From positions 1-36,589 of the forward strand of contig DYQZ01000009.1 in NCBI GenBank assembly GCA_020719005.1: a DNA stretch of 36,589 nucleotides. Direction: 5' to 3'. Source of the stretch: Candidatus Omnitrophus sp. (GTDB taxonomy: Bacteria; Omnitrophota; Gorgyraeia; Zapsychrales; Fredricksoniimonadaceae). Positions 2,862 to 27,209 of this stretch are shown piece after piece. Under the pieces are notes generated by a model that ran no database searches, had not been told where the DNA came from, and saw only the letters and a program-made list of their open reading frames with translations. The stretch's first letter is position 1, and every line of letters begins with the position of its first letter. The position numbers and the translations under genes are program-made.

Positions 2862-3788
2862 TCACTCTTCAAATGAAAGAAACCGTATGAAATTATCAGG
2901 GACATCCGTCCGGCTCGAGTTCTGGACACGGACCTTAAAACGATACTTTTCCCCAACCTTGAAACGTGCGAAAACCTCTGTGTCGTGGATGCTATCGATA
3001 ATGACCGCATCATCAACCTGAAATTCATCATATCCGTTCCGGGGACGGGGATCATCCGCGAAGCCAATATTATACGGCGGAGCACACTCCTTACACATAT
3101 GTGTTGGCAGACACGGAGGGCAAATATTTTCTTTTAAGAAAACACAATACGCATCGAGAACAACCTCAGTCTCCTTGTTCTCCCGATTCTTCTTAAGCTC
3201 CCGGACCGTATATGTTCCGCCGGCAACAAGGCTGACACCCTTCTCCTCAGGCACCAGCGCGCTTTTGTCCGACTTAATGGTAAGCGTGAACGCGCCGAAC
3301 CCCGTGGAATTAAATCCCCGCGAAGTCACCTTAAATTCATATTCCCCGGTATACCGGCAATTCAAAACAGCCTCAGCCACAGGGCCGTTCTCGCTGTAAC
3401 TGTCCATCGTTCCCCAGGCGCCGTTGGCATCAAGAAAACCCCGGATCTCGGGAACAAACTCCGACGATGTAACAGTCACATGAAGCCTCTCGCCCCGCTT
3501 TCCCTGATATGTAATGGCCTGCACATCATGATCATGGGCCAAACGCCCCCGAAACTTTAATCCGGGATAGGAACGCTCGCGGCCTTGCCCCCGGTCATCG
3601 GACGCCGTAAGCCCATGGTCCATGATCGCCTGAACCGCGCTACCCGCCGAATCGGGGTCCGATGTGTCCATCACCGCCACCGTCCCGCCGGAAGCAAGGA
3701 TCGCCTCTTCAATGGTCTTGGGCGGATTAGCCGCACAAGCCGTCCCGACGATAACAAAGACCATGGACACAATATAAAATGTTCTCAT
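2862..3788 (-). CDS. Secreted PPC-like domain protein, copy B
   Basis: A 308-aa exported protein of unknown function, paralogous over its whole length to 388-1311. The start MRTFYIVSM follows an AAGGA ribosome site, and the signal peptide ends TACA|AN. The frame stays open 88 codons upstream, but that stretch is the shadow of the preceding Cys-rich gene. The mature part starts PPKTIEEAILASGGT. The central sheet region (GERLHVTVTS, GEYEFKVTS, AFTLTIKS) resembles a PPC beta-sandwich. A four-Cys cluster (CPPCLPTHMCKEC) follows, and the tail is the same as in copy A. The stop codon is 3 bp from the repeat array. It lies 11 bp behind the truncated Cys-rich gene, which suggests that the Cys-rich and PPC-like genes were originally directly adjacent partners. 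Confidence 0.8.
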   Translation of the reverse strand: MRTFYIVSMVFVIVGTACAANPPKTIEEAILASGGTVAVMDTSDPDSAGSAVQAIMDHGLTASDDRGQGRERSYPGLKFRGRLAHDHDVQAITYQGKRGERLHVTVTSSEFVPEIRGFLDANGAWGTMDSYSENGPVAEAVLNCRYTGEYEFKVTSRGFNSTGFGAFTLTIKSDKSALVPEEKGVSLVAGGTYTVRELKKNRENKETEVVLDAYCVFLKENICPPCLPTHMCKECAPPYNIGFADDPRPRNGYDEFQVDDAVIIDSIHDTEVFARFKVGEKYRFKVRVQNSSRTDVPDNFIRFLSFEE

Positions 3789-3798
3789 AAAAAAATCC

Positions 3799-4191
3799 TT
3801 ATTGGCAATCCTTAGGACAATTGCAACGGTTTTCTGACGGGCCTTCGCACTTCCCGTCGCCGCAAGCGATGCACTCATAGCCGCCGTCCAATTGCTCGCA
3901 TGTTTTCTGATCAAATGCCCCTCGTGCCTGAAGTCCTTCACAGCAAATATCATCAAACCCGCTACCAACGGTCTTGCCTTTCTCTGCACAATGAACGATC
4001 TGTTCCACAGAAACGCCAGCTTGCCCCAACATACCCAGAAAGGGCTTGTCATCCAAAGACCTGAGTTGATCCAACCCCTGCCCTGAAACTAGCCCTTTGG
4101 GCCCCATGGAATTCCATGCGGTCAGACGGCCTTTGAACCCATCAACAGGAATATTTTCAGAGATCCGGACCAGCGATCTTTTGGGCGGACA
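3799..4191 (-). pseudogene. 5'-truncated secreted Cys-rich protein, copy B
   Basis: The frame encodes the last ~130 residues of the Cys-rich family seen at 5156-5710. It reads CPPKRSLVRISENIPVDG, then CAEKGKTVGSG, ICCEGLQARGAFD, GGYECIACGDGKC and NCPKDC. No signal peptide is present: homology stops at 4191, exactly where the repeat copy ATTGTGTCCCGGTTATT (4191-4207) begins, and farther upstream lies another gene in a different frame. The first in-frame ATG after the breakpoint (4107) would yield only a tail without export signal. I therefore call it a remnant, though expression of the tail is not excluded. Confidence 0.75.
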
Positions 4192-14725: not shown

Positions 14726-15523
14726 TTAAGAATGGACATGGGGCACTCTAATGTGTAGAAGCATTCTCAAGAACTTACGAACATCCTCCAACGAACCCGA
14801 ACAATACTCCGCCTTCGATCGCACATCAGGCATGCCAACCTTAACCGTCAATCCTCGGTCACGCAACGCCTCAAACGCTGCCTCATCCGTCTTATCATCA
14901 CCAATAAAAATAGGAAGATGCTTCCTCTTGCCCCAAAACCGTAATAACCGTTTCACCGCCTGCCCCTTATCCATAGCGGTCGGCGACATGATCTCAACGA
15001 CCTTCTTTCCAGGCATGATCAAGATCCGTCCATGGTGGACAGCATCAGAACAAATATCAAGCACGATCCGCTTGGCTTTCTTTTCAGAACCCGACGACGC
15101 CTTGCGGTAGTGAACGGCCAATGAAAAAGGTTTTTGCTCTAACAGAATTCCTGGCAAACTATGCAGCCCCAATTGCAATCGAGAACGCAACTCACCTAAT
15201 TCACGAATATAACGCTTGGAAACTCGCTGTGAGGCTAGCCCCTTCACCTGAAACTCAATACCATGACTCCCAACATACGACATCCTCTTCACGGGGATCA
15301 TCTTTTTAAGGTCGCTTAATCCCCGTCCAGAAACGATCGTTACCTTAACATTCGGCAACTTCACCAAAGAGACCAATATCTCCCGTGCCTGAAAAGGCAA
15401 CTTTGCCTCGGCAGGTGTTGGCGCAATGGCTGAGAGCGTCCCATCGTAATCTAAGAACAGGGCCAGCGGCTCATGCGCGAGGCGCACGCGCCAATCGTCT
15501 AAATTAAGCAGAAGGTTTTTCAT
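14726..15523 (-). CDS. otsB: Trehalose-6-phosphate phosphatase
   Basis: A 265-aa HAD-superfamily phosphatase that removes phosphate from trehalose 6-phosphate. HAD motif I is FLDYDGTL (Asp25 nucleophile, Asp27 acid/base), motif II lies in TIVSGRG, and a late Lys and GDDKTDEAAF (motif IV) complete the site. The cap-region motifs YVGSHGIE and SLAVHYR are typical of OtsB. The start overlaps the otsA stop by 20 bp, implying translational coupling, and GGGATC/AGGA sequences lie upstream. It is the last gene of the GH15-otsA-otsB operon. Confidence 0.95.
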   Translation of the reverse strand: MKNLLLNLDDWRVRLAHEPLALFLDYDGTLSAIAPTPAEAKLPFQAREILVSLVKLPNVKVTIVSGRGLSDLKKMIPVKRMSYVGSHGIEFQVKGLASQRVSKRYIRELGELRSRLQLGLHSLPGILLEQKPFSLAVHYRKASSGSEKKAKRIVLDICSDAVHHGRILIMPGKKVVEIMSPTAMDKGQAVKRLLRFWGKRKHLPIFIGDDKTDEAAFEALRDRGLTVKVGMPDVRSKAEYCSGSLEDVRKFLRMLLHIRVPHVHS

Positions 15524-17756
15524 GATCCCGATTCCTTATGCCTGAAAGTTCCGAAACAATACTCCCCGCCCAGCGATAAACATTATTCTCCTGAACGATC
15601 TTTCTCATCGCTGCCATGCGCCGCCTCTGCTCTTCTGGAGACATGGTCACGGCCATACGGATGGCATCTGCGAACTCTTCTGTTGCATAAGGATTGATCG
15701 AAATAGCCTCTGTAAACTCCCTTATCGCACCCGTAAAACAGCTGAGCAATAAAACACCCGTTTCATCTTGCTTGGCCGCGACATATTCCTTGGCAACCAG
15801 ATTCATTCCGTCATGCAAAGAGCTCACAATACAAATGTCAGCCAAAGCATAAAAAGGAGCGATCTCTTCTGTCGAAAGATGTCGTTTGATATAAATGATC
15901 GGCTTGTAATCGCCGTCCGAATGTTTCCAGTTCACCTTCTCGACCAACTCATCGATCTCGCCACCAAGGTCATGATACCGCTTAATGTGTGTACGGCTCG
16001 GCGCCCCGATCTGAACAAAGACGAACTTCTTTTTATATTCCGGATTCTTCTCCAGAAAACGGTCAACCGCCAGAATGCGCTCGCCAATGCCTTTCGTGTA
16101 ATCAATACGATCGACACCCACCGCAACGATCTTGCCCTCAAGTTTGTGCTCCTTTCGAACCTTGGCCAATTCCTTCTCCAAGATCACATCTTCCGGCGAT
16201 GGCAAGGCAATACTGATCGGGAAAGCCCGCACAAGTGTTTCATGCGCACCCCTTACAATGCTGAACTTCTCAGTATTCAACCGACATTCAAGAAGCCGAT
16301 TAGCTGTCTCAAGAAAATTATTACAGTGATACTGCACATGGAATCCGATCAAGTCGCACGCCAACATACCGTTCAGGATCTGCTTTTGATACGGACACAC
16401 TGAGAAGACTTCCGGATTCGGCCACGGAATATGCCAAAAAAGCGCCACAACAACATCCGGACGCTTGGCCTTGATCATCGCCGGAAGAAGCGTGAAGTGA
16501 TAATCCTGAATAAAAACAAAAGCCGGACCCGAAGGCAATTCCTCAATAACCGCATCCGCGAACTTCTGATTCACCTTTTGATAAGTATCCCAATCTTTCT
16601 CACTAAAGATCGGTCGGGTATGCGTGATATGACACAGCGGCCATAAGCCTTCGTTAGAAAACCCGTAATAGTATTCCTCTTCTTCATCTTTCGTCAACCA
16701 AACACGCCGAAGAATATACCGATTATCCTCTGGCGGCACGCCGATCTTATCTTTAGAATTTACAAACTTCCTGTCCGCGTTCCCAGCACCGTGGGCGATC
16801 CAGGTGCCGCCCAAAGCACGCAGAATAGGACCAATGGCCGTGACAACACCACTAGCTGGGCGTATGCAAAGGATCTTCCCTGTCGCATCATCCGCCATAT
16901 GCATATACGGCTCGCGGTTAGACACGACCAGCATCGTACTGGTTCCCAGCTTGGCTTGAATAAAACTGCGAAGCTTGTTTTCAGTCCAGACTTCTTCCTT
17001 GTTCAACTGTGTCTGCGCATCTTCCACGATCGCCCGGCGAGCTACACGCAGACTCAACGCCACCTGCTCCACTTCATTAGCCAACTTGCCAAGCTCATCT
17101 TTGTCCGTTAAAGGATGCCGATGATGCGCTTCCTCTCCTCTTAAAAAACCCTTGAACCAATCTGTCAAACGCAACACCGGCAGCAGGAACATCTGCCGAA
17201 GAACAATGACCGAGGCAAGAATGATAAGGATAAAAAGAACAATGAGCGTGACACTGATCCCTTTCCAGATCTCACCCAAACGGCCTAAAACATATGATGT
17301 GTCATAAATGATCTCCACACTCCCGAGCGCCGATCCATCCTCTCTTAAAACCGGCAAGACATAACTGTAAACCGTGTAATCCTTAAACTTTTCAATGCCT
17401 GAGAACGGGATCTTATCCCTGAATACCGCCTCTAGATATGGTTTGGGCTTATCTTTCCAATCCGCAAATCTTTCCGTAATAGCAACGATCTTACTTTCCG
17501 CGTCATAGATCACGCATCCCTGCAAACGATCCCGCGTCTGGAACTTTTCAACCAGATAATTAGCATTTCGACTGTTGTGCATCTCGAGCACGGCCTGAAC
17601 AGAAAGCTCCATACTCTCTGCCACGGCCTTTGCCTTGCGCTTGAGCTCATCCATCAGCTTGTCTTCATCAGTTCTCGCCTGAACCATGCCAAACACCACA
17701 AAACCAGCGGCAACGATGATCAGGATCGGCAGGATAAAAAAGAATATCCTTCTCAT
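15504..17756 (-). CDS. otsA: Membrane-anchored trehalose-6-phosphate synthase with sensor and HAMP region
   Basis: A 750-aa fusion. Residues 5-27 are a membrane helix, and about 28-160 an extracytoplasmic domain of Cache/PAS-like pattern (LQGCVIYDAESKIVAITE, YSYVLPVLREDGSALGSVEIIYD). Residues 166-187 form a second helix, followed by a HAMP-like linker (about 188-240, LPVLRLTDWFKGFLRG, DELGKLANEVEQV). Residues 274 to about 745 are a GT20 trehalose-6-phosphate synthase: SNREPYMH, FIQDYHFTLLPAM, FWHIPWPNPEVF, DRIDYTKGI, SLHDGMNLVAKEYVAA. It makes trehalose 6-phosphate from UDP- or GDP-glucose and glucose 6-phosphate. Plain OtsA is about 470 aa and soluble; here the module order is that of a receptor. 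The first 4 bases overlap the GH15 stop (ATGA). Confidence 0.93.
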   Translation of the reverse strand: MRRIFFFILPILIIVAAGFVVFGMVQARTDEDKLMDELKRKAKAVAESMELSVQAVLEMHNSRNANYLVEKFQTRDRLQGCVIYDAESKIVAITERFADWKDKPKPYLEAVFRDKIPFSGIEKFKDYTVYSYVLPVLREDGSALGSVEIIYDTSYVLGRLGEIWKGISVTLIVLFILIILASVIVLRQMFLLPVLRLTDWFKGFLRGEEAHHRHPLTDKDELGKLANEVEQVALSLRVARRAIVEDAQTQLNKEEVWTENKLRSFIQAKLGTSTMLVVSNREPYMHMADDATGKILCIRPASGVVTAIGPILRALGGTWIAHGAGNADRKFVNSKDKIGVPPEDNRYILRRVWLTKDEEEEYYYGFSNEGLWPLCHITHTRPIFSEKDWDTYQKVNQKFADAVIEELPSGPAFVFIQDYHFTLLPAMIKAKRPDVVVALFWHIPWPNPEVFSVCPYQKQILNGMLACDLIGFHVQYHCNNFLETANRLLECRLNTEKFSIVRGAHETLVRAFPISIALPSPEDVILEKELAKVRKEHKLEGKIVAVGVDRIDYTKGIGERILAVDRFLEKNPEYKKKFVFVQIGAPSRTHIKRYHDLGGEIDELVEKVNWKHSDGDYKPIIYIKRHLSTEEIAPFYALADICIVSSLHDGMNLVAKEYVAAKQDETGVLLLSCFTGAIREFTEAISINPYATEEFADAIRMAVTMSPEEQRRRMAAMRKIVQENNVYRWAGSIVSELSGIRNRDHEKPSA

Positions 17757-19585
17757 AACATAGGCTCCTTCGTTGTCCCGCGTCCCACATCTGAAGAAAA
17801 AAGACGCGCACCACTATTCCACTGATAATTTGTCTCTAAAAGAAAGGCTGTTTGTATCAACGCTAAATGGGAATATCCCTGAGGAAAGTTACCCGTCAGA
17901 TGTCCGGTCTCAGGCTCAATGTCTTCAGACAACAGCCCCAACCGATTCACACACCCGATCATCTTGTCGAACATGACACGCGCGTCTTCCTGGCGCCCCG
18001 TCAGATAAAGCGCATTGATGAGCCAAAAAGTACACACGATAAACGCATTCTTAGGCGTTCCCAATTCATCATCTGCGGTATAACGCATCACAAACCCATT
18101 ACGCAAAAGATGTTTTGAGGCGGCCTCTACCGTCCCTATTATCCGATAATCATTATTGGGCAAGAAACCATAGTGAAGCATCATCAGGTTGGAGGCATCA
18201 AAATCTTTGGATTCATAGTGCATCACAAAACTATTGAGCTCAGAGCTCCAGCCGTGCGCCAGGATATCGGCCTTGATCTCCTCGGCAATAGCCAGATACC
18301 TGGGGGCATGTCTTTCTTTTCCGATAACACGACTGATCTTAGCCGCGCGGTCCATAGCCACCCAATTCATCAATTTTGAATGCACAAAATGTCGCGGCGG
18401 TCCTCGACGCTCCCAAATACCACAATCCGGCTCACGCCATGTCAGCGCAACTTTATTGGCGAGCGAACGCACAACCGTCCAAAGCTCTTCATCAAAATCC
18501 TTTTGATGATAAGGATTGGCGATAAAATATGAATACAAGGCCTCGATCAATTCGCCATAAACATCATTCTGTTTCTGTTGATAAGCTGCATTCCCCACAC
18601 GGACCGGCTTAGAACCCTTATACCCCGCTAAATGCCGCAACACCTTTTCATCCATCACGCGCTCACCATTGATCCCATACATGACCGCGATATTCTCCTT
18701 CTTGACCAGCATCCGCCCAAGAATAAACTCAATGTATCTCTCCGCCGAATGAACATGCCCCATGCGCGCGTAAAGATCAATGATCATGCTAGCATCCCGC
18801 ACCCAGCAAAAACGATAATCCCAATTACGGTCTCCGCCGATGATCTCCGGCAAAGAGGTCGTAGGTGCCGCGATCACTGCTCCCGTCCGCTGGAACATAA
18901 GAAGTTTAAGCGTAATGACCGAGCGGATCACGCTCTCCTTATAACGCTCCGGCACACGGGTGCGATAAACCCAGTCCATCCAATAGCTCTTCGTCTTCTC
19001 ATATTCCAAATATATCTTTTCCTGATTAATGAGTGACAGTTTTTCGTGATAGGAAAGCAGAAAATACGATGACGCCTTAAGCTCGATCGCTTCCCCATTC
19101 AGAAGAAGATCAAAATCAAGATCCGAATACAGGTAATAACTGTTGTACTCCCCTTCTGTAGAGGAGATCTTCAAATAATCCGGGAAACGTTTAAGATATG
19201 CCTCTGCCAATCCATAATTAAGGCACGGCTTCAGCTCAATCCTGATCCGCGGATGCCCTGAAATAACATGGATATTCCGATGGATCTCCGACGGGCAATG
19301 AACCTCACCGCCGCTGGTCAGAAATCGCGGCATGTAATCCATAACCTCAAAGACTCCGTCCCTGGTCTCAAAACGGGTCTTCAAGATCGGCGTGTGAAAA
19401 GAATAACTTTGCTCAATCTTGATCACCTCTTGTGCAGAAATACGAAAAAACCCGCCACGTTCTTCATCCAAAATACGCCCGAATAAAGAAGGCGAATCAA
19501 AAAATGGCAGGCACAACCAATCGATCGAAGCATCTGCCCCGATCAATGCAGCACTTGCACAGTTGCCGATGATCGCGTAATCCAT
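17753..19585 (-). CDS. GH15 family glycoside hydrolase (trehalase or glucoamylase-like)
   Basis: A 610-aa cytoplasmic protein of glycoside hydrolase family 15. It has the N-terminal domain of this group (IGNCASAALIGADASIDWLCLPFFDSPSLF). The (alpha/alpha)6 barrel motifs IGGDRNWDYRFCWVRDAS and LLSEDIEPETGHLTGNFPQGYSH are also present; the latter is the usual region of a catalytic Glu. Family members cleave trehalose or alpha-1,4 glucans with inversion; a place directly before otsA and otsB favours trehalose as substrate or product-related sugar, but that is context only. Its stop overlaps the otsA start by 4 bp. A GGGGGGG-rich ribosome site precedes the ATG. Confidence 0.9.
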   Translation of the reverse strand: MDYAIIGNCASAALIGADASIDWLCLPFFDSPSLFGRILDEERGGFFRISAQEVIKIEQSYSFHTPILKTRFETRDGVFEVMDYMPRFLTSGGEVHCPSEIHRNIHVISGHPRIRIELKPCLNYGLAEAYLKRFPDYLKISSTEGEYNSYYLYSDLDFDLLLNGEAIELKASSYFLLSYHEKLSLINQEKIYLEYEKTKSYWMDWVYRTRVPERYKESVIRSVITLKLLMFQRTGAVIAAPTTSLPEIIGGDRNWDYRFCWVRDASMIIDLYARMGHVHSAERYIEFILGRMLVKKENIAVMYGINGERVMDEKVLRHLAGYKGSKPVRVGNAAYQQKQNDVYGELIEALYSYFIANPYHQKDFDEELWTVVRSLANKVALTWREPDCGIWERRGPPRHFVHSKLMNWVAMDRAAKISRVIGKERHAPRYLAIAEEIKADILAHGWSSELNSFVMHYESKDFDASNLMMLHYGFLPNNDYRIIGTVEAASKHLLRNGFVMRYTADDELGTPKNAFIVCTFWLINALYLTGRQEDARVMFDKMIGCVNRLGLLSEDIEPETGHLTGNFPQGYSHLALIQTAFLLETNYQWNSGARLFSSDVGRGTTKEPML

Positions 19586-20263: not shown

Positions 20264-20548
20264 TTACGCTTTAACCGCCTGGATCGAAGAAGGCTTCTTC
20301 ATTCTCTCCCAGATCATGCCAATGAACCAGACAGCCAAAACAGCCGCTGACATAAGAACGCCCTTGAAAAGGTCCTGAGCCATATTAGGTGCGATCAAAA
20401 AGAATTCGCCATTCACCAAATGATCGGCTGCACTGAAAACAGCAGCACCGTAAAACATAAGGTTCAACTGCCCGATCTTCTGATCCTTGGTCTTACACCA
20501 TAAAATGGTCGTAACCACAGACGCTGTTGCTGGAACTGCATGACACAT
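20264..20548 (-). CDS. Small membrane protein with MCHAVP N-terminus
   Basis: A 94-aa protein with two or three probable membrane helices (about residues 7-20, 29-46 and 62-82). It starts with a strong AGGAGG ribosome site and lies 29 bp behind the HypC-HydE fusion. Its first residues, MCHAVP, echo the HypC N-terminus MC.A[IV]P, including the key Cys2, although the rest is not HypC. No family recognised. Co-location suggests a link to hydrogenase assembly, which is inference. Confidence 0.65.
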   Translation of the reverse strand: MCHAVPATASVVTTILWCKTKDQKIGQLNLMFYGAAVFSAADHLVNGEFFLIAPNMAQDLFKGVLMSAAVLAVWFIGMIWERMKKPSSIQAVKA

Positions 20549-20577: not shown

Positions 20578-21885
20578 CTATTGCTTCCCGATACTCAGAT
20601 CCGTCGGTGCACGGCCAAGGCCTTCCAAGAGTGTGATCGTATCCGTGATCTGAGTTTGGATCGCATCATCCTGATGGGCGCGCCCGGGATAAATTTCATA
20701 TAACGCACGACGCTCGAGTGGTGTCACATTGAGCATGACTGAATTAGCCCCGGCCATAAGCGCTTCTCTGCGAGCTTCCGGTGCCAGCGTCTCAAGTCCT
20801 GTTGTGACCAGGGTCTTCACCTGCGATGATAATGCAAAACGTGCGGCCGCCAGCGCCTTAACGATCCCCGCCACAGATGGCGCCGGAACATTGGCCATCG
20901 GGGTCAAAGGATGCGGCAAGAACGGCCCCATGCTCAGCATCTCCACATTAAGCTCACCCGCGAGCTCAATATCACGCGCGATCATTTCACTCGTCTGTCC
21001 CGGAAGACCGATCAATGCTCCCGTAATAATAAGATACCCCAACTCATTGGCATGACGGATCTCTGCCAAACGCGCCTCAAGGGTCGAACCTGGATGCAAA
21101 CGTGCAAAAAGATCAGCGTCCGACGTCTCAAAACGAAGCAGTACCCCGCGCGCACCAGCTTCATACAAACGGCTTAAGGCAGACTTCCCGACTTCACCAA
21201 AACTGATAAAGATCAAAACACCGAAGCGGCGTTTGATCTCAGAGATGATAAAAACAAGTTCATCGATCGTGCGGCTAGGGTCCTCGCCGCTTTGTAACAC
21301 CAGCGCCTTGAAACCATGATCCTCGACCGCTGAACGCACCGCCTCAAAGATCTCATCCGCTGACATGCGGTAGCGCTTAAGGCCGGTGTTCAAACACGAG
21401 ATCCCGCAATAGCCGCAGCCCTCGGCACAATAATTCGATATCTCAACGATCCCGTGAACACAGCATGAATTGCTGTGATGGCGCTGACGAATATAGTTGG
21501 CCGCGTTCAAGAGAAAATCAAGTTCGCCGGTGTCCTTGATATCCAAAAGATACTTTGTCTCTTCCCGCGTCAGCTTCTCGCCTGTCACGACCTTATCCTT
21601 AAGGTCACGAACCTTGGTATAGCGAGCGCCTCCCCAGGGAGAAAGCTTGCTTCCCTCTTTATCGATCTCTTGAAGCTCAAAGAACAGGTCTTTCCACGTC
21701 GAGAGCGTGGCTTCTGCTTCTTTCGCGGAAACACGCGTGATCACAAAACCACCCTGCGCGTAGACATAATCACCGGCGTGAAGACCCTTCAGTTCATTAA
21801 TGGCCTTACGCTCCTCGCCGAAATAATCAACAAGGACAAACTTACCTTCAAAACCTTTTATCCGGCCGGGGATCGCATAGCACAT
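20578..21885 (-). CDS. HypC-HydE fusion: hydrogenase maturation chaperone joined to radical SAM enzyme
   Basis: A 435-aa two-domain protein. Residues 1 to about 73 are HypC/HupF-like: MCYAIPGRI with the essential Cys2, and GDYVYAQGGFVITRVSAKEAEATL. From about residue 95 onward it is a radical SAM protein of the HydE/BioB type: EISNYCAEGCGYCGISC with the SAM [4Fe-4S] cysteines Cys153, Cys157 and Cys160 (CX3CX2C), LKRYRMSADEI, and ALVLQSGEDPS, all close to HydE. HypC carries the Fe(CN)2CO fragment for [NiFe] sites; HydE acts in building the [FeFe]-hydrogenase cofactor. Here the fusion follows hypA and a [NiFe] echABCDEF operon, so a role in Ech maturation is suggested, or the HydE part serves an [FeFe] enzyme elsewhere. 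Confidence 0.9.
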   Translation of the reverse strand: MCYAIPGRIKGFEGKFVLVDYFGEERKAINELKGLHAGDYVYAQGGFVITRVSAKEAEATLSTWKDLFFELQEIDKEGSKLSPWGGARYTKVRDLKDKVVTGEKLTREETKYLLDIKDTGELDFLLNAANYIRQRHHSNSCCVHGIVEISNYCAEGCGYCGISCLNTGLKRYRMSADEIFEAVRSAVEDHGFKALVLQSGEDPSRTIDELVFIISEIKRRFGVLIFISFGEVGKSALSRLYEAGARGVLLRFETSDADLFARLHPGSTLEARLAEIRHANELGYLIITGALIGLPGQTSEMIARDIELAGELNVEMLSMGPFLPHPLTPMANVPAPSVAGIVKALAAARFALSSQVKTLVTTGLETLAPEARREALMAGANSVMLNVTPLERRALYEIYPGRAHQDDAIQTQITDTITLLEGLGRAPTDLSIGKQ

Positions 21886-21913: not shown

Positions 21914-22252
21914 CTATCCTGTAATATCCTTGATGGAGAATTCTCTTCCTGCGGATGTCGGTATTCCCATCAGCTGACACTTCGGACAAGAAAGCACAGA
22001 CCCTTTTTTAGGAAAGACCTCTGCACATTTAGGACATTGAAGTTTTGCCGGAACGAATTCAACTTTAAGTTCGACCCCTTCAAGTGCTGTCCCCTGGGTC
22101 ATTTCTTCCCAATGAAGAAGGACTGACCCTTCATCGAACCCAAGAAGTTCTCCAACGAGAATAGAAACTTTTTTTGCTTTCTTGATCCCGCGCGCCTGGA
22201 TCATGTCATTGGCTTTAGCGATCAGCCCCTGGACCTGATGTGATTCATGCAT
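21914..22252 (-). CDS. hypA: Hydrogenase nickel incorporation protein HypA
   Basis: A 112-aa metallochaperone delivering Ni to the hydrogenase large subunit. The N-terminal MHES keeps the Ni-binding His2. The zinc-ribbon cysteines are Cys73, Cys76, Cys89 and Cys92 (CPKC...CPKC). The start MHESHQ overlaps the ferredoxin gene's end by 8 bp; the frame is open 75 codons farther upstream only as a shadow of that gene. The position directly after echF and before the HypC-HydE fusion fits its role in maturing Ech. No hypB, hypD, hypE or hypF is in the window. Confidence 0.93.
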   Translation of the reverse strand: MHESHQVQGLIAKANDMIQARGIKKAKKVSILVGELLGFDEGSVLLHWEEMTQGTALEGVELKVEFVPAKLQCPKCAEVFPKKGSVLSCPKCQLMGIPTSAGREFSIKDITG

Positions 22253-22580
22253 GGTAAGAATCCTTTTGTGGACCAACACAACACGGAGAATACTGCGTAT
22301 CGAGCGCCAGGCATTTCTTGGGGCAGACATCAACACACAGGTTGCAGGAAATACAACGCAACCGGTCGATCTCCCAAACCTTTGGCTCTTTGGTGACAAT
22401 GATCGCCGTCGTCGGACAACGACGCTGGCAAATGCCGCAAAAGATGCATTTCTCAATTTCAATATTGACCTTCCCACGCGCGCCCACAGGATGAACCTTG
22501 GGCACGAAGGGATAACGCTCTGTCACTGGTGCGCTGAAAAGTTTTCTCAATACCATTTTTGACATCGACAAGAACGACAT
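22245..22580 (-). CDS. echF: Ech hydrogenase subunit F, 2[4Fe-4S] ferredoxin
   Basis: A 111-aa electron-transfer subunit carrying two [4Fe-4S] clusters: CIFCGICQRRCP (Cys45, 48, 51, 55) and CISCNLCVDVCP (Cys76, 79, 82, 86). It is homologous to NuoI/HycF and links soluble ferredoxin to the small subunit. The start MSFLSMSK is 1 bp after the echE stop, with GGAG 7 bp upstream. A further CC pair near the C-terminus is unusual but outside the cluster motifs. Confidence 0.93.
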   Translation of the reverse strand: MSFLSMSKMVLRKLFSAPVTERYPFVPKVHPVGARGKVNIEIEKCIFCGICQRRCPTTAIIVTKEPKVWEIDRLRCISCNLCVDVCPKKCLALDTQYSPCCVGPQKDSYHA

Positions 22581-22581
22581 G

Positions 22582-23661
22582 TTATCTCTCCGCACAACTG
22601 ATACAAGGATCGATCGTAAGCACAATGACCGGCACATCCGCCAACTGACATCCCGCAAGCGCTGTTAACAGTGGCGGAAGGTTCGCGAACGTAGGCGTGC
22701 GCACACGCAAACGCTGGAGGAATTTCGTGCCATTGGCCTTGGCGTAATAAATAGCTTCACCGCGAGGCTGTTCAGAGCGGGCAAAGAATTCTCCGTTAGG
22801 GAACCCGACCACTTTAGCCTCAAGCGGGCCTTCGGTCATCTGCGTCACGCATGTCTCAATCAACTGAAGCGACTGATCAAGCTCACGGATACGCACTTTG
22901 CAACGTGAATAACAATCCCCTGCTGTTTCAACAACAGGCGTGAAACCAAGTTTGTTGTAGCCGGAATAACCGGTCATGCGGATATCCATGGCAACACCAC
23001 TGCCACGCAGCATGGGGCCTACGGCACCAAGCGTCTTGGCTTGTTCCATGGAAAGTTTGCCAACGCCCTGCAAACGGTGCTTAACGGTCGTGTCATTGAG
23101 GAAAATACCGCCGATCTCGGTCCACTGATTTCTATAAGACCTCAGTTTCTTCAGGATCTCCTGAAGTTTTTCGGCAGAAATATCGCGCCTGACCCCGCCA
23201 ACCTTGCAAGAACCAAAGATCACGCGGCCACCGGTCGTTTCTTCAATGATATCCAGGATCTGCTCGCGGATCTGCCACGACTGCATGAACAAGTTCTCAA
23301 AACCAAACGCATCGGCGGTCAGCCCAAGCCATAACAAATGACTATGGATCCTCGAAAGCTCAGACCAGATCACACGCAGATACTGTGCGCGCGAGGGGAC
23401 TTCAAGCTTTAAAAGCTCTTCCATGGCGATACAATACGTCATCCCGTGGATAAAACTACAAATGCCGCAGATACGCTCTGCAACAAAAACATAATCAATG
23501 AAATCTTTCTTCTCGACCAGTTTTTCCAGGCCGCGATGAATGAACCCGATGGAGGGGATCGCCTCAATGACCTTTTCATCCTCGATAACAAGGTCTAAAT
23601 GGATCGGCTCAGGAAGCACCGGATGCTGTGGTCCGAAGGGGATAATGGTGCGCTTGCTCAT
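22582..23661 (-). CDS. echE: Ech [NiFe] hydrogenase large (catalytic) subunit
   Basis: A 359-aa group 4 [NiFe] hydrogenase large subunit, homologous to NuoD. The nickel ligands are all present: RICGIC (Cys65, Cys68) and DPCISC (Cys353, Cys356), so it is a true hydrogenase rather than a Complex I-like relative. The chain ends three residues after the last Cys (AER), so there is no C-terminal peptide for an endoprotease to remove. Family motifs RGLEKL, HGMTYC, ELSRIHSHLLWLG and QPRGEAIYY are also present. The start overlaps echD by 4 bp. With ferredoxin it should produce or consume H2, coupled to ion movement by EchA/EchB. Confidence 0.97.
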   Translation of the reverse strand: MSKRTIIPFGPQHPVLPEPIHLDLVIEDEKVIEAIPSIGFIHRGLEKLVEKKDFIDYVFVAERICGICSFIHGMTYCIAMEELLKLEVPSRAQYLRVIWSELSRIHSHLLWLGLTADAFGFENLFMQSWQIREQILDIIEETTGGRVIFGSCKVGGVRRDISAEKLQEILKKLRSYRNQWTEIGGIFLNDTTVKHRLQGVGKLSMEQAKTLGAVGPMLRGSGVAMDIRMTGYSGYNKLGFTPVVETAGDCYSRCKVRIRELDQSLQLIETCVTQMTEGPLEAKVVGFPNGEFFARSEQPRGEAIYYAKANGTKFLQRLRVRTPTFANLPPLLTALAGCQLADVPVIVLTIDPCISCAER

Positions 23662-24023
23662 GCCTTCACCTCACCTGTCACTGCCTCGGGATTAAAAGCC
23701 CGCGGGGTCGCTGTGCGATAGAATTTGCCTTGAAAATCAACGGCTATGCCCGTGATCTTGACGCCAAAAAGGTCGTGGATCTCATTCTCATAAAGGAACG
23801 CGCAAAGAAAAATACTGCTGATGCTCGGCACCGCACCGCCCTCTTTGGGAAGAGTGATCCTGAAACTGGTATACGCAAAATCCAGGTCAAAGGAATATTG
23901 CAATTCAAGTGTTTCGGACAGTGTTGTACAGCAGATCTGAACGAGCCGCTGACCCTGGGCCTGCATTTCTTTGGCCCTCTCCAAAAGCTCGGAGATCTGA
24001 ATATCGATGATCTGTTGCGCCAT
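23658..24023 (-). CDS. echD: Ech hydrogenase subunit D (NuoC-like)
   Basis: A 121-aa subunit of the NuoC/30-kDa family. The conserved segment AFLYENEIHDLFGV with VDFQGKFYR near the C-terminus is the family signature. Such proteins have no cofactor and bridge the large and small subunits. The start MAQQIID is 1 bp after the echC stop; the 17 upstream codons are a shadow of echC. The gene is shorter than NuoC, as usual for EchD. Confidence 0.9.
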   Translation of the reverse strand: MAQQIIDIQISELLERAKEMQAQGQRLVQICCTTLSETLELQYSFDLDFAYTSFRITLPKEGGAVPSISSIFLCAFLYENEIHDLFGVKITGIAVDFQGKFYRTATPRAFNPEAVTGEVKA

Positions 24024-24024
24024 A

Positions 24025-24471
24025 TTATTCCTTTTCTTTCTCCGCCGCGAGAGCTGCCGCGCGTTTCTTATCAAGAAGCCCGACCGCCTGCACCGCCGCG
24101 TCGATCAATGCCTCGGGACGCACCGCGCACCCAGGCACATAAATATCCACCGGAACAACTTTATCCGCGCCACCGAGGACGTTATAACATTCACGGAAAA
24201 TACCGCCTGATGTCGCACAAATACCCACCGCCATGACGACCTTTGGCTCCGGCATCTGATCATAAATACTTTTGACGATCGGCGCATTCTGATGATTGAT
24301 CGATCCGGTAAGAAGAAGGATATCCGCATGCTTTGGATTCCCTGTATTAACAACACCGAAACGCTCCAGATCAAAACGCGGCATCAAGACAGCCAACACC
24401 TCGATGTCACAGCCGTTACAGCTTGATCCGTCATAATGAATGATCCATGGTGATTTAGATAAAGCTCCCAT
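24025..24471 (-). CDS. echC: Ech hydrogenase small subunit (NuoB-like)
   Basis: A 148-aa small subunit holding the proximal [4Fe-4S] cluster next to the NiFe site. The ligands are visible: Cys18 and Cys21 (SSCNGCDIE), Cys85 (VGICATSGG) and Cys115 (VPGCAVRPE). The length fits EchC. The ATG directly abuts the echB stop (TAAATG). Confidence 0.94.
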   Translation of the reverse strand: MGALSKSPWIIHYDGSSCNGCDIEVLAVLMPRFDLERFGVVNTGNPKHADILLLTGSINHQNAPIVKSIYDQMPEPKVVMAVGICATSGGIFRECYNVLGGADKVVPVDIYVPGCAVRPEALIDAAVQAVGLLDKKRAAALAAEKEKE

Positions 24472-25320
24472 TTAATGCCTCAACATAAGATAAAGAATGT
24501 TTCCCATGCCAGCTATAAGCGCGATGATCCACGCCCCTCCCACCATCCACTGCCAGCGCACACGCGCGGCCGCATTATCAATGATAATGATAAGTTCAAA
24601 CAAAAAGAACGTCACCACAAGGCCGATCCACATATTCCAGGCAAAGAAAAGGTAACCGATCCCCAGCACAAAAACATATTCATACCAATGTGCGATCTCG
24701 ATGAGCGCTAGGGTCCTGCCCGAAAACTCCGTCGTGATCCCCTTGACCAGTTCCTGATGCGCATGATGGGACGTCGAAAGATCGAAGGGGGACTTACGGA
24801 ATTTGATCGCGAGGATGAAAAAGAACGCGAGAAAGAACCCAGGCAGATCAAGGATAAGCGGCTTGGGATAGGCGATGATATCCGCGACCTGAAAACTCTT
24901 GGTGACCATATACATCCCTACCGCGACGAGAAGCACAGCCGGCTCATACGCCATCATCTGAAGCGTTTCGCGCTGGGCACCGATAAAACTATAAGGCGAA
25001 CTCGCCTTGTATCCGCCTAGAGCAAAAAACACACCGGCAAGGGTCAGTGAGAAAATAACAAGCAAAAGATCCCCGCCCGAAAAGAACAACGCACCCGTGA
25101 AAATGGTCATCACAAAAAAGAATTCCATATAAAGATTCTGTGTGTGGCGCGCGACCAAATTCTCTTTCTGAAAAAGTTTCTCTACATCATAAAAAGGCTG
25201 CAACAACGGCGGGCCAATACGTCCCTGCATCCGCGCCGTCAGTTTACGGTCAATTCCCGAAAGAAGCCCGCCCACCAAAGGCGCAATGACCACAAAAAGA
25301 AAACCAGTGATTAAAGACAT
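24472..25320 (-). CDS. echB: Ech hydrogenase membrane subunit B (NuoH-like)
   Basis: A 282-aa integral membrane protein with about eight helices, homologous to NuoH/HycD. Signatures are RIGPPLLQPFYDVEKL in the first loop and KFRKSPFDLSTSHHAHQELVKG in a later one. It anchors the catalytic module and forms part of the ion path. AGGAGG before MSLITG fixes the start; this gene overlaps echA by 10 bp. The open frame 11 codons farther upstream is not needed. Confidence 0.94.
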   Translation of the reverse strand: MSLITGFLFVVIAPLVGGLLSGIDRKLTARMQGRIGPPLLQPFYDVEKLFQKENLVARHTQNLYMEFFFVMTIFTGALFFSGGDLLLVIFSLTLAGVFFALGGYKASSPYSFIGAQRETLQMMAYEPAVLLVAVGMYMVTKSFQVADIIAYPKPLILDLPGFFLAFFFILAIKFRKSPFDLSTSHHAHQELVKGITTEFSGRTLALIEIAHWYEYVFVLGIGYLFFAWNMWIGLVVTFFLFELIIIIDNAAARVRWQWMVGGAWIIALIAGMGNILYLMLRH

Positions 25321-27209
25321 CCCACACCTCCTATCACCGCCAACGCAACGCAAAGAAGGATCGCCAAACCAACCCCAAGGCCCATCAAGCGCGCCTCGGG
25401 AAAATGATCTTCCAGATAATAATTCTTCAGGGCCATGTCCTTAACACCGCCGAGAGAACTGGTGAACTGGTGGCTGCGCTCCCCTGTATTGGCACCGGCC
25501 AGATATGCATCCGTGATCTTGACTTTGCGGGAACTATCAAGAAAACTGAACGGAAAAAGCGCCACCATCGTGAGCATGATGCCCATGGTCGTGACATTGC
25601 CTGCGCTCATTTCCATTTGCTTGCCATAGATCATGAACACATACGGCTCGATCATGGTGTTAGCCACATGCGAAAAGAACCCGCACATCAAAATGGTCAA
25701 GACCGTCAGCGTCCCTAAGGCGAACATTTGATCTTTGGAAACTTTCGCCTCAAGTTTTTGATAAGGCCTGTCGATCACCAGCAATTTCCCGATCCATTTG
25801 ACCCAAAAGAAAAGCGTCGCTGAACTGCCGAATACAAGGAACAAGGCAAGGAACGGATTATAATCAAGCAATGCCTTGAGCACCGCCCACTTGCTGATCA
25901 GCATCCCGAAAGGAGCCAAGAACATGCCCGCGATACCGACCTGCATCATGACCGAAACACGCGGCATGCGCATAATAAGCCCTGACATATCCTCGATCCT
26001 CCGGCTTCCGATCGTATGCTCGACCACGCCCACACAAAGGAACAACAGCCCCTTGGCGATCGCATGGAAAATGATAAGGAGTATCCCGGCCCATACTGCT
26101 TCATACGTTCCGACACCGGCGCACAAAATAATAAGACCCAAATTAGCGATCGTTGAATATGCCAATACCTTCTTGGCATCCGTCTGGCTGATGCAGATAA
26201 AAGATCCCATGAGGAATGTCAAAATGCCAATGAGCGCCACCACAAACCCTGCCAACGTTCCCTCGAGAACAGGCGCGAACTTAAGGACAATATACACACC
26301 GGCCTTGACCATGGTGCTTGAATGAAGGAGCGCAGAAACAGGTGTTGGGGCTACCATCGCGCCCACGAGCCATGAAGAGAACGGAAGCTGGGCGGATTTT
26401 GTCATGCCTGCAAAACTGATGAGGACCACCGGAAGAAGGACAACGGCTTTAGGCAACTGGAGTGCTTTATCCAACTCCACCGTTCCCGTGGACATATAAA
26501 GGTAGATGATCCCGACCAAGAACGCCAGACCGCCCAGCATATTCCAACGGAGAGCCCCAAAAGCATTCTTCACAGACGGCTCATCCCCTTTATAACCAAT
26601 AAGAAGGAAAGAACATACAGTCGTGATCTCCCAGAAGAAAAAGAGCCAGAAAAGATTGTTTGAAAAACACACGCCGAACATGGCGGACAAGAACAGGAAG
26701 ATGATCCCGAAGAAGACTGGACGACGATCAGGGATTTCGCGGTGATGCTTGCAGAAATCTTTCATATACCCGACAGCATAAACCGCAATAAGACTGCCGA
26801 TCATGCCTACAATAAGCCCCATGATGACCGAGAACGGGTCTAGGAACAGATTGTTTTCTGCATGCGCCGCATGTCCAGGACCAAAATAGAACCAAAATAA
26901 AAGCCCGGCAGAAGCGACGACCAAGGAGCTTACAACAATATCTTTACGTTTTAATGCCAGGAACAAAAGAAATGCAGAAATAGCGATCTCTGAGATAAGG
27001 ATCACAGGCTCAGCCCAAGTGATATGCGCCGGGATCATGACCGTCTTTCCGCCTAAAGGAATGCTTAAAAGCATCAAGGACGCCAAGATCAGCATACCCG
27101 CACCCGTATAAACAAGCGGCGCAAAAGCAGAGGCTTTACGGTTGATAAAGGCCAGTGCCGCTATGCACAGCGGGAAAATAATAAGAAAAGACAATAATTG
27201 AAAAAGCAC
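25311..27209 (-). CDS. echA: Ech hydrogenase membrane subunit A (NuoL/antiporter-like)
   Basis: A 632-aa proton/cation-translocating subunit homologous to NuoL/MrpA, with roughly 16 helices. Conserved elements are FFFWEITTVCSFLLIGY (the essential Glu of the antiporter fold), KSAQLPFSSWLVGAMVAPTPVSALLHSSTMVKAGVY (conserved Lys, HSSTMVKAG) and a Lys-bearing C-terminal part. The start is GTG, with AAGGA 8 bp upstream. It is the first gene of echABCDEF, and the order is the standard one for Ech. Both the membrane ion pathway and the NiFe site of the complex are therefore complete in this operon. Confidence 0.94.
   Translation of the reverse strand: MLFQLLSFLIIFPLCIAALAFINRKASAFAPLVYTGAGMLILASLMLLSIPLGGKTVMIPAHITWAEPVILISEIAISAFLLFLALKRKDIVVSSLVVASAGLLFWFYFGPGHAAHAENNLFLDPFSVIMGLIVGMIGSLIAVYAVGYMKDFCKHHREIPDRRPVFFGIIFLFLSAMFGVCFSNNLFWLFFFWEITTVCSFLLIGYKGDEPSVKNAFGALRWNMLGGLAFLVGIIYLYMSTGTVELDKALQLPKAVVLLPVVLISFAGMTKSAQLPFSSWLVGAMVAPTPVSALLHSSTMVKAGVYIVLKFAPVLEGTLAGFVVALIGILTFLMGSFICISQTDAKKVLAYSTIANLGLIILCAGVGTYEAVWAGILLIIFHAIAKGLLFLCVGVVEHTIGSRRIEDMSGLIMRMPRVSVMMQVGIAGMFLAPFGMLISKWAVLKALLDYNPFLALFLVFGSSATLFFWVKWIGKLLVIDRPYQKLEAKVSKDQMFALGTLTVLTILMCGFFSHVANTMIEPYVFMIYGKQMEMSAGNVTTMGIMLTMVALFPFSFLDSSRKVKITDAYLAGANTGERSHQFTSSLGGVKDMALKNYYLEDHFPEARLMGLGVGLAILLCVALAVIGGVGCL

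Follow-up and report, generated by a model that had tools for sequence, protein, structure and literature searches.

A HypC–HydE-type radical SAM fusion beside [NiFe] hydrogenases of Omnitrophota genomes devoid of HypD, HypE and HypF: a probable Hyp-independent route to the iron-CO-cyanide unit

In the well-described maturation of [NiFe] hydrogenases, the Fe(CN)2CO unit is held between Cys2 of HypC and Cys41 of HypD, and its delivery is thought to be carried out by HypC alone (PMC11565642). According to a review of 2025, six Hyp proteins are needed for this process, and the anaerobic source of CO is the most pressing open question; the main text of that review mentions neither 'radical SAM' nor 'HydG' (PMC12134894). 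On the other hand, the route that serves the [FeFe] hydrogenases depends on HydG, which forms [Fe(cys)(CN)(CO)2]- from tyrosine and passes it directly to HydE, and on HydE itself, which reduces and dimerises this synthon (PMC12752695). Here we describe a protein in which a HypC domain is joined to a HydE-type radical SAM domain. In the open-access literature searched by title and abstract, a scope that leaves out preprints and most subscription papers, no description of a HypC-HydE fusion or of [NiFe] maturation by HydG was found.

The fusion protein and its Ech operon

The window, i.e., the whole stretch of 36,589 nucleotides that was analysed, corresponds to the entire contig C85 of the draft genome G000 (1.44 Mb, 85.5% complete). 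A single open reading frame of its minus strand encodes both domains of the fusion (Table 1). An earlier note on this DNA had pointed to the words MCYAIPG, NYC...CGYC, LKRYRM and LQSGED, all of which are present in the protein, and had assigned the N-terminus to HypC on account of Cys2 and the HypC core (residues 1-73); this assignment was borne out by the Pfam family HupF_HypC (PF01455), which matches residues 1-64 with an E value of 1.2e-11 and 45.1 bits, against a gathering score of 28.5. The Radical_SAM family of Pfam covers residues 147-308 (E 1e-16), and the best radical SAM family of NCBIfam is HydE (TIGR03956), well ahead of PylB (135 bits) and BioB (100 bits). The score under the HydE model, 225.7 bits, lies below the equivalog cut-off of 254.6, and so does that of the fusion at locus L157 (251.0 bits). 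Matches of the window protein in the PDB include Thermotoga maritima HydE (E 2.7e-59) and HypC (E 3.4e-5). The AlphaFold2 model, built on an alignment, reached a pLDDT of 93.1 and a pTM of 0.92; its top match in Foldseek was T. maritima HydE, with a TM-score of 0.92 to 3ciw, and the complex-B-bound HydE entries 7o1o and 8qmk were within the top ten.

The earlier note had also placed the fusion next to a [NiFe] Ech operon, and the families of Pfam and NCBIfam agree: both CxxC motifs of the large subunit and five accessory Ech subunits (22245-27209) identify an Ech-type hydrogenase of group 4, accompanied by HypA. The gene order is echABCDEF-hypA-fusion, all on one strand, with the fusion as the last gene, beginning 28 bases past the end of hypA. 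EchE terminates in DPCISCAER without an extension, so that an endopeptidase should not be needed.

Other genes of the window were also recorded. Downstream of the fusion, an open reading frame of 94 residues (20264-20548), for which the family search gave no match, has a counterpart with 45% identity in another fusion locus (L046, 7986-8267). A cluster at 14726-19585 encodes a GH15 protein, a trehalose-6-phosphate synthase and a phosphatase; the synthase carries approximately 270 extra N-terminal residues that have no Pfam match and look like a membrane sensor region. Two related, secreted-looking proteins (388-1464 and 2862-4052), also without a Pfam match, are apparently the result of a local duplication.

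Table 1. Coordinates of the fusion gene, its domains and motifs, the adjoining Ech operon, and the [FeFe] gene set of the same genome (positions are those of the window unless contig C43 is named)
Feature	Position	Strand	Evidence
EchA, NuoL/antiporter-like membrane subunit	25311..27209	-	Pfam
EchB, NuoH-like membrane subunit	24472..25353	-	Pfam
EchC, small subunit, NuoB-like	24025..24471	-	Pfam
EchD, NuoC-like, start codon inferred	23658..24023	-	sequence, Pfam
EchE, [NiFe] large subunit, RICGIC and DPCISC motifs	22582..23661	-	Pfam, sequence
EchF-type 2[4Fe-4S] ferredoxin subunit, start codon inferred	22245..22580	-	sequence, Pfam, NCBIfam
HypA, nickel metallochaperone, nickel arm retained	21914..22252	-	Pfam HypA 4.6e-21
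HypC-HydE-type radical SAM fusion protein, 435 aa	20578..21885	-	Pfam, NCBIfam, PDB, AlphaFold2/Foldseek
HypC domain, residues 1-75, invariant Cys2 and Pro6, Gln44	21661..21885	-	Pfam, alignments
HydE-type radical SAM domain, residues 91-435	20581..21615	-	TIGR03956 8.8e-67, tree, TM-score 0.92
CX3CX2C motif (Cys153, Cys157, Cys160), radical SAM [4Fe-4S] cluster	21406..21429	-	invariant in 30 aligned fusions and canonical HydE
Cys141-Cys142, start of first barrel strand	21460..21465	-	fusion-specific, invariant
HydA, contig C43	11163-12038		
HydF, contig C43	14053-15237		
HydG, contig C43	15420-16829		
Canonical HydE, contig C43	17110-18078		

Gene content of the genomes that carry the fusion

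A search by family of 285 Omnitrophota genomes revealed the fusion in 45 and its absence from 240; the recurrence in relatives that the earlier note had recommended looking for is thus found in this phylum and in other phylum-level groups as well. All of the 45 are drafts, mostly metagenome bins, most of them more than 90% complete, and in one of them, G268, contig edges break up the fusion. The fusion is genuine, neither a chance product nor an assembly artefact; its architecture recurs in these 45 genomes and in about a dozen phylum-level groups. HypD was detected in none of the 45 fusion genomes versus 100 of the 240 others (Fisher p = 4e-10, with shared ancestry ignored), and HypE above its cut-off in none versus 99 (Fisher p = 5e-10, again with shared ancestry ignored). 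HypF was likewise found in none of the 45, two of which gave just short and weak matches to its N-terminal part, and was found in all 15 HypD-positive control genomes (ten over the cut-off, five at half length). No separate HypC was detected in the fusion genomes, where every HypC match sits at the fusion; a [NiFe] large subunit is present in 45/45. The set of HypD, HypE and HypF is accordingly missing from the genome of the window and from every other genome of the 45.

It could be argued that HypDEF are present in these organisms and were missed, either in the gaps of incomplete genomes or as proteins too diverged to be recognised. All the genomes are indeed drafts, and that of the window is 85.5% complete; nevertheless, 0/45 is a count taken mostly from genomes over 90% complete, identical searches did detect HypD in 100 Omnitrophota genomes and in the controls, and the separate HypC is missing as well. 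We regard this explanation as scarcely credible. At the level of genomes, HypCDEF are replaced by the fusion and HydG. The fusion and HypD never occur together in any genome of the 285 sampled, and genomes of both types are found in nine families (f1, f4, f6, f13, f26, f36, f46, f50 and f58); therefore, the exclusion is repeated within families and does not correspond to a single deep split.

HydG is encoded in 44 of the 45 fusion genomes, often adjoining the fusion; in the other (G029, 96% complete) the search for HydG gave no match. Many loci include a second radical SAM protein near the fusion, with scores above the HydG cut-off. HydF and the [FeFe] hydrogenase are both absent from 30 of the 45 and both present in 15, including G000. 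In those 30 genomes there is no [FeFe] system in which HydF and an [FeFe] hydrogenase accompany HydE and HydG, and hence HydG and the fusion stand there without an [FeFe] enzyme to serve.

A scan of 84,980 genomes yielded 204 confirmed fusion stretches, of which the best 80 were retained. These best 80 of 204 loci come from about a dozen phylum-level groups, i.e., Omnitrophota, Margulisiibacteriota/Saganbacteria/WOR-1, Spirochaetes, Elusimicrobia, Auribacterota and Deltaproteobacteria, as well as Atribacteria, WOR-3, Fibrobacter and Chitinispirillaceae, Ozemobacteraceae, UBP13 and Victivallis. [NiFe] subunits are encoded at 60 of these 80 loci and HydG at 30, and at a threshold of E 1e-8 neither HypD, HypE nor HypF was found at any of them. 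Among 38 fusion genomes, most of which lie outside Omnitrophota and six of which are unclassified bins, HypD is absent from 36 and HydG present in 36 (it was not found in G303 and G306), and an [FeFe] hydrogenase is present in 20 and absent from 18. Two deltaproteobacterial loci combine the fusion with HypD, which is full in one (L190, from G297) and partial, at a contig end, in the other (L199, from G303); these are either mixed bins or genomes with both systems. In addition, the fusion domains of L192 (Falkowbacteria) and L193 (WOR-1) are identical over the tree columns, which suggests misbinning.

The genome of the window lacks HypD, HypE, HypF and a separate HypC. From the list of partner genes named in the earlier note, HydG, HydF and the [FeFe] hydrogenase were located on contig C43 (Table 1), whereas HypD, HypE and HypF were not found; the probable partner HydG is thus encoded outside the window, a point on which the note needs correction. 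The note had also anticipated that a complete separate HypC and [FeFe] system would make the link incidental: the [FeFe] set exists, the separate HypC system does not. It is conceivable from this that the fusion is an extra HydE for [FeFe] hydrogenases and that its adjacency to [NiFe] genes is incidental, since a complete [FeFe] set does lie on another contig of G000. However, that set has its own canonical HydE, no [FeFe] hydrogenase is present in 30/45 and 18/38 of the fusion genomes, and the linkage to [NiFe] operons recurs across phyla, so we assign this reading a near-negligible probability.

The clearest association of the parts was observed in G079 (96% complete, 2 contigs), where one open reading frame of 915 residues (L043, 9651-12398), directly downstream of an Mbh-type [NiFe] operon, encodes HypC (residues 1-64), HydE (95-406) and HydG (444-913) in a single chain. 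Its HydE score of 304.5 bits is a sum over the whole protein, which has two radical SAM domains. HypD, HypE, HypF, HydF and HydA were searched for in this genome and none was found. The occurrence of such a natural HypC-HydE-HydG fusion argues strongly that its three parts function jointly.

The hydrogenases near the fusions are, as judged from sequence, of the Ech type, the Mbh type, the group 3 type and, in one case, the group 1 type. RxCGxC, DPCxxC and the arginine of PRG are kept in 80 of the 80 large subunits inspected near fusions, with the four metal cysteines intact. The large subunit of a HypD-positive genome (G037, locus L117) is 86-88% identical to those of the fusion loci L145 and L149, the first of which belongs to a genome with HydG and without HypD (G317); similarly, that of HypD-positive G136 (L277) is 79% identical to that of L176. 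Nearly the same enzyme thus occurs with either assembly system, which suggests that its finished metal site is identical, or closely similar, in both cases. Just before the fusion, two loci (L036, 10868-11110; L045, 10260-10502) encode HypA-like proteins of 80 residues that keep the MHE N-terminus; the copy of L036 matches the HypA models at the first 68-71 positions only, and the zinc-binding end seems to be missing.

Phylogeny and diagnostic residues

A tree of the radical SAM domains was built with 38 fusions and 25 canonical HydE, rooted on two distant HydE-like rows and with very divergent long-branch rows excluded. The 38 fusion domains form one clade (100/99), sister to the 25 canonical HydE (95/92); with this root, the fusion domain does not group within canonical HydE. 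The designation of this part as HydE-type in the earlier note therefore holds with regard to best family and fold, and the domain does not fall outside the relatives of HydE; nevertheless, it belongs to a distinct sister clade and is not an ordinary HydE. The HydGs that adjoin fusions do not form a single clade and alternate in their tree with the HydGs of [FeFe] clusters. The idea of a special HydG clade beside the fusions was rejected on these grounds; of the two components, it is the fusion that seems to be specialised and HydG that seems to be shared.

A long class of HydG, in which the C-terminal cluster motif CTACYR is replaced by CTAGYRC, occurs at L036 (8054-9553), L065 (7340-8839) and similar loci, and is found both beside fusions and within [FeFe] clusters. 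The motif was considered as a sign of changed HydG chemistry, and this was dropped: the [FeFe]-cluster HydG of G000 has CTAGYRC, and CTACYR is retained in other HydGs linked to fusions.

Cys2 and Pro6 of the HypC part are preserved across the fusions. The core histidine of HypC (VHxGFA), present in 13/13 canonical HypC rows of the phylum, is replaced by Gln44 in 40/40 fusions, a change that would be compatible with the loss of the HypD partner. The radical SAM part has the HydE fold, and its CX3CX2C motif is invariant in the 30 fusions aligned. Cys141-Cys142 is found in 100% of the fusions and is not conserved in canonical HydE, and this pair is a candidate for the second thiolate ligand of the iron unit. 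His144, invariant and specific to the fusions, stands where canonical HydE has an invariant arginine, and another conserved arginine is replaced by Gly247 in the window fusion; given these changes, the substrate or product may differ from those of HydE.

These two replacements, together with the score under the HydE equivalog cut-off, could also mean that the radical SAM domain has lost or altered its chemistry, and that the fusion works chiefly as a HypC chaperone, docking on HydG and transporting the iron unit. This possibility, to which we give a slim chance, has to contend with the retention of CX3CX2C and of most other conserved residues of the HydE barrel, namely Gln198, Ser199, Glu253, Arg272, Met316, Thr361, Thr362, Met384 and Tyr396, and with the close superposition of the model on HydE.

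A proposed route and its relation to known systems

It is highly probable, in our view, that the fusion stands at the centre of a Hyp-independent pathway for the assembly of the iron-CO-CN unit in [NiFe] hydrogenases. The chemistry that we infer for this route is as follows. HydG would cut tyrosine to CO and CN- and assemble an Fe(CO)(CN)-cysteine synthon, as it is known to do in the [FeFe] system. The synthon would then pass to the HydE-type domain, where radical SAM processing would strip the cysteine carrier. Instead of dimerising to the [FeFe] precursor for HydF, the resulting mononuclear iron unit would be caught by Cys2 of HypC, with Cys141/Cys142 perhaps substituting for Cys41 of HypD. 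By homology with classical HypC, the HypC domain would dock on the large subunit and hand over the iron unit, and nickel would then be provided by HypA. The earlier note had suggested a crossover maturation route, or a ligand-bearing iron fragment supplied to Ech, and the gene content of the genomes lends this idea firmer support than could have been known from the window sequence.

The ligand count deserves attention. The HydG product has two CO and one CN, and the standard [NiFe] site one CO and two CN, a mismatch that counts against the route. From two HydG turnovers, 2 CO and 2 CN would be available, which suffices for Fe(CN)2CO, although one CO would have to be exchanged for CN. Given the two CO and one CN of the known HydG product, the sites matured by the fusion might be NiFe(CO)2(CN) rather than NiFe(CN)2(CO), a ligand set that would be new for [NiFe] hydrogenases; we think this doubtful, and the near-identical large subunits of Hyp-type genomes would argue against it. 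A different way to sidestep the mismatch is that HydG and the fusion contribute no more than the CO ligand or a single Fe-CO unit, while an unrecognised substitute for HypE/HypF provides the two cyanides. This would suit the fact that the anaerobic source of CO for [NiFe] hydrogenases is unknown (PMC12134894), yet HypE and HypF are absent from all 45 Omnitrophota fusion genomes, no other cyanide-making protein was recognised in the neighbourhoods examined, and HydG itself produces CN, all of which makes a role restricted to CO distinctly improbable.

Because HypD, HypE, HypF and a separate HypC are missing, and HydF and HydA are dispensable, the proposed route in which the fusion and HydG supply the complete iron unit belongs to neither known maturation system. 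Each of its parts nonetheless has a known relative. Numerous uncultured anaerobic bacteria appear to do without HypD, HypE and HypF in assembling the iron-CO-cyanide core of their [NiFe] hydrogenases, with the fusion and HydG in their stead. If the proposal is true, there is a second path to an important metal site with tyrosine as the source of CO, which is a concrete and testable answer to the question of the CO source for those lineages that lack HypDEF and have HydG. It would also link the [FeFe] and [NiFe] assembly machineries, with the iron-carbonyl-cyanide synthon of HydG as a suggested shared currency. From a practical perspective, a compact maturation kit for the production of [NiFe] hydrogenases could be possible, made of two proteins, or of one as in G079, and screens for functional [NiFe] hydrogenases that depend on HypDEF will overlook the anaerobes of the fusion type.

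In comparison with the Hyp system (HypABCDEF), the target is the same, i.e., a large subunit with RxCGxC and DPCxxC; HypA and the Cys2 and Pro6 of HypC are shared, and the endopeptidase is retained beside many relatives. In contrast, the fusion genomes of Omnitrophota have HydG in place of HypD, HypE, HypF and a separate HypC, and their HypC is joined to a HydE-type radical SAM domain and has glutamine instead of the conserved histidine. With the Hyd system (HydE, HydF, HydG) they share a HydG that scores above the family cut-off and is interspersed with those of [FeFe] clusters, as well as the fold and the CX3CX2C motif of the HydE-type domain; the differences are that HydF and the [FeFe] hydrogenase are often absent, that the linkage is to [NiFe] operons, and that this domain forms a sister clade of its own, attached to HypC and bearing a fusion-specific Cys-Cys pair. 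HmdB, PylB and BioB have the same radical SAM subfamily fold, with scores clearly lower than that of HydE. Finally, HypX of aerobes is likewise an auxiliary path to the CO ligand of the [NiFe] site. HypX works from formyl-tetrahydrofolate and supplements a complete Hyp set, whereas in the fusion genomes radical SAM enzymes appear to replace HypDEF.
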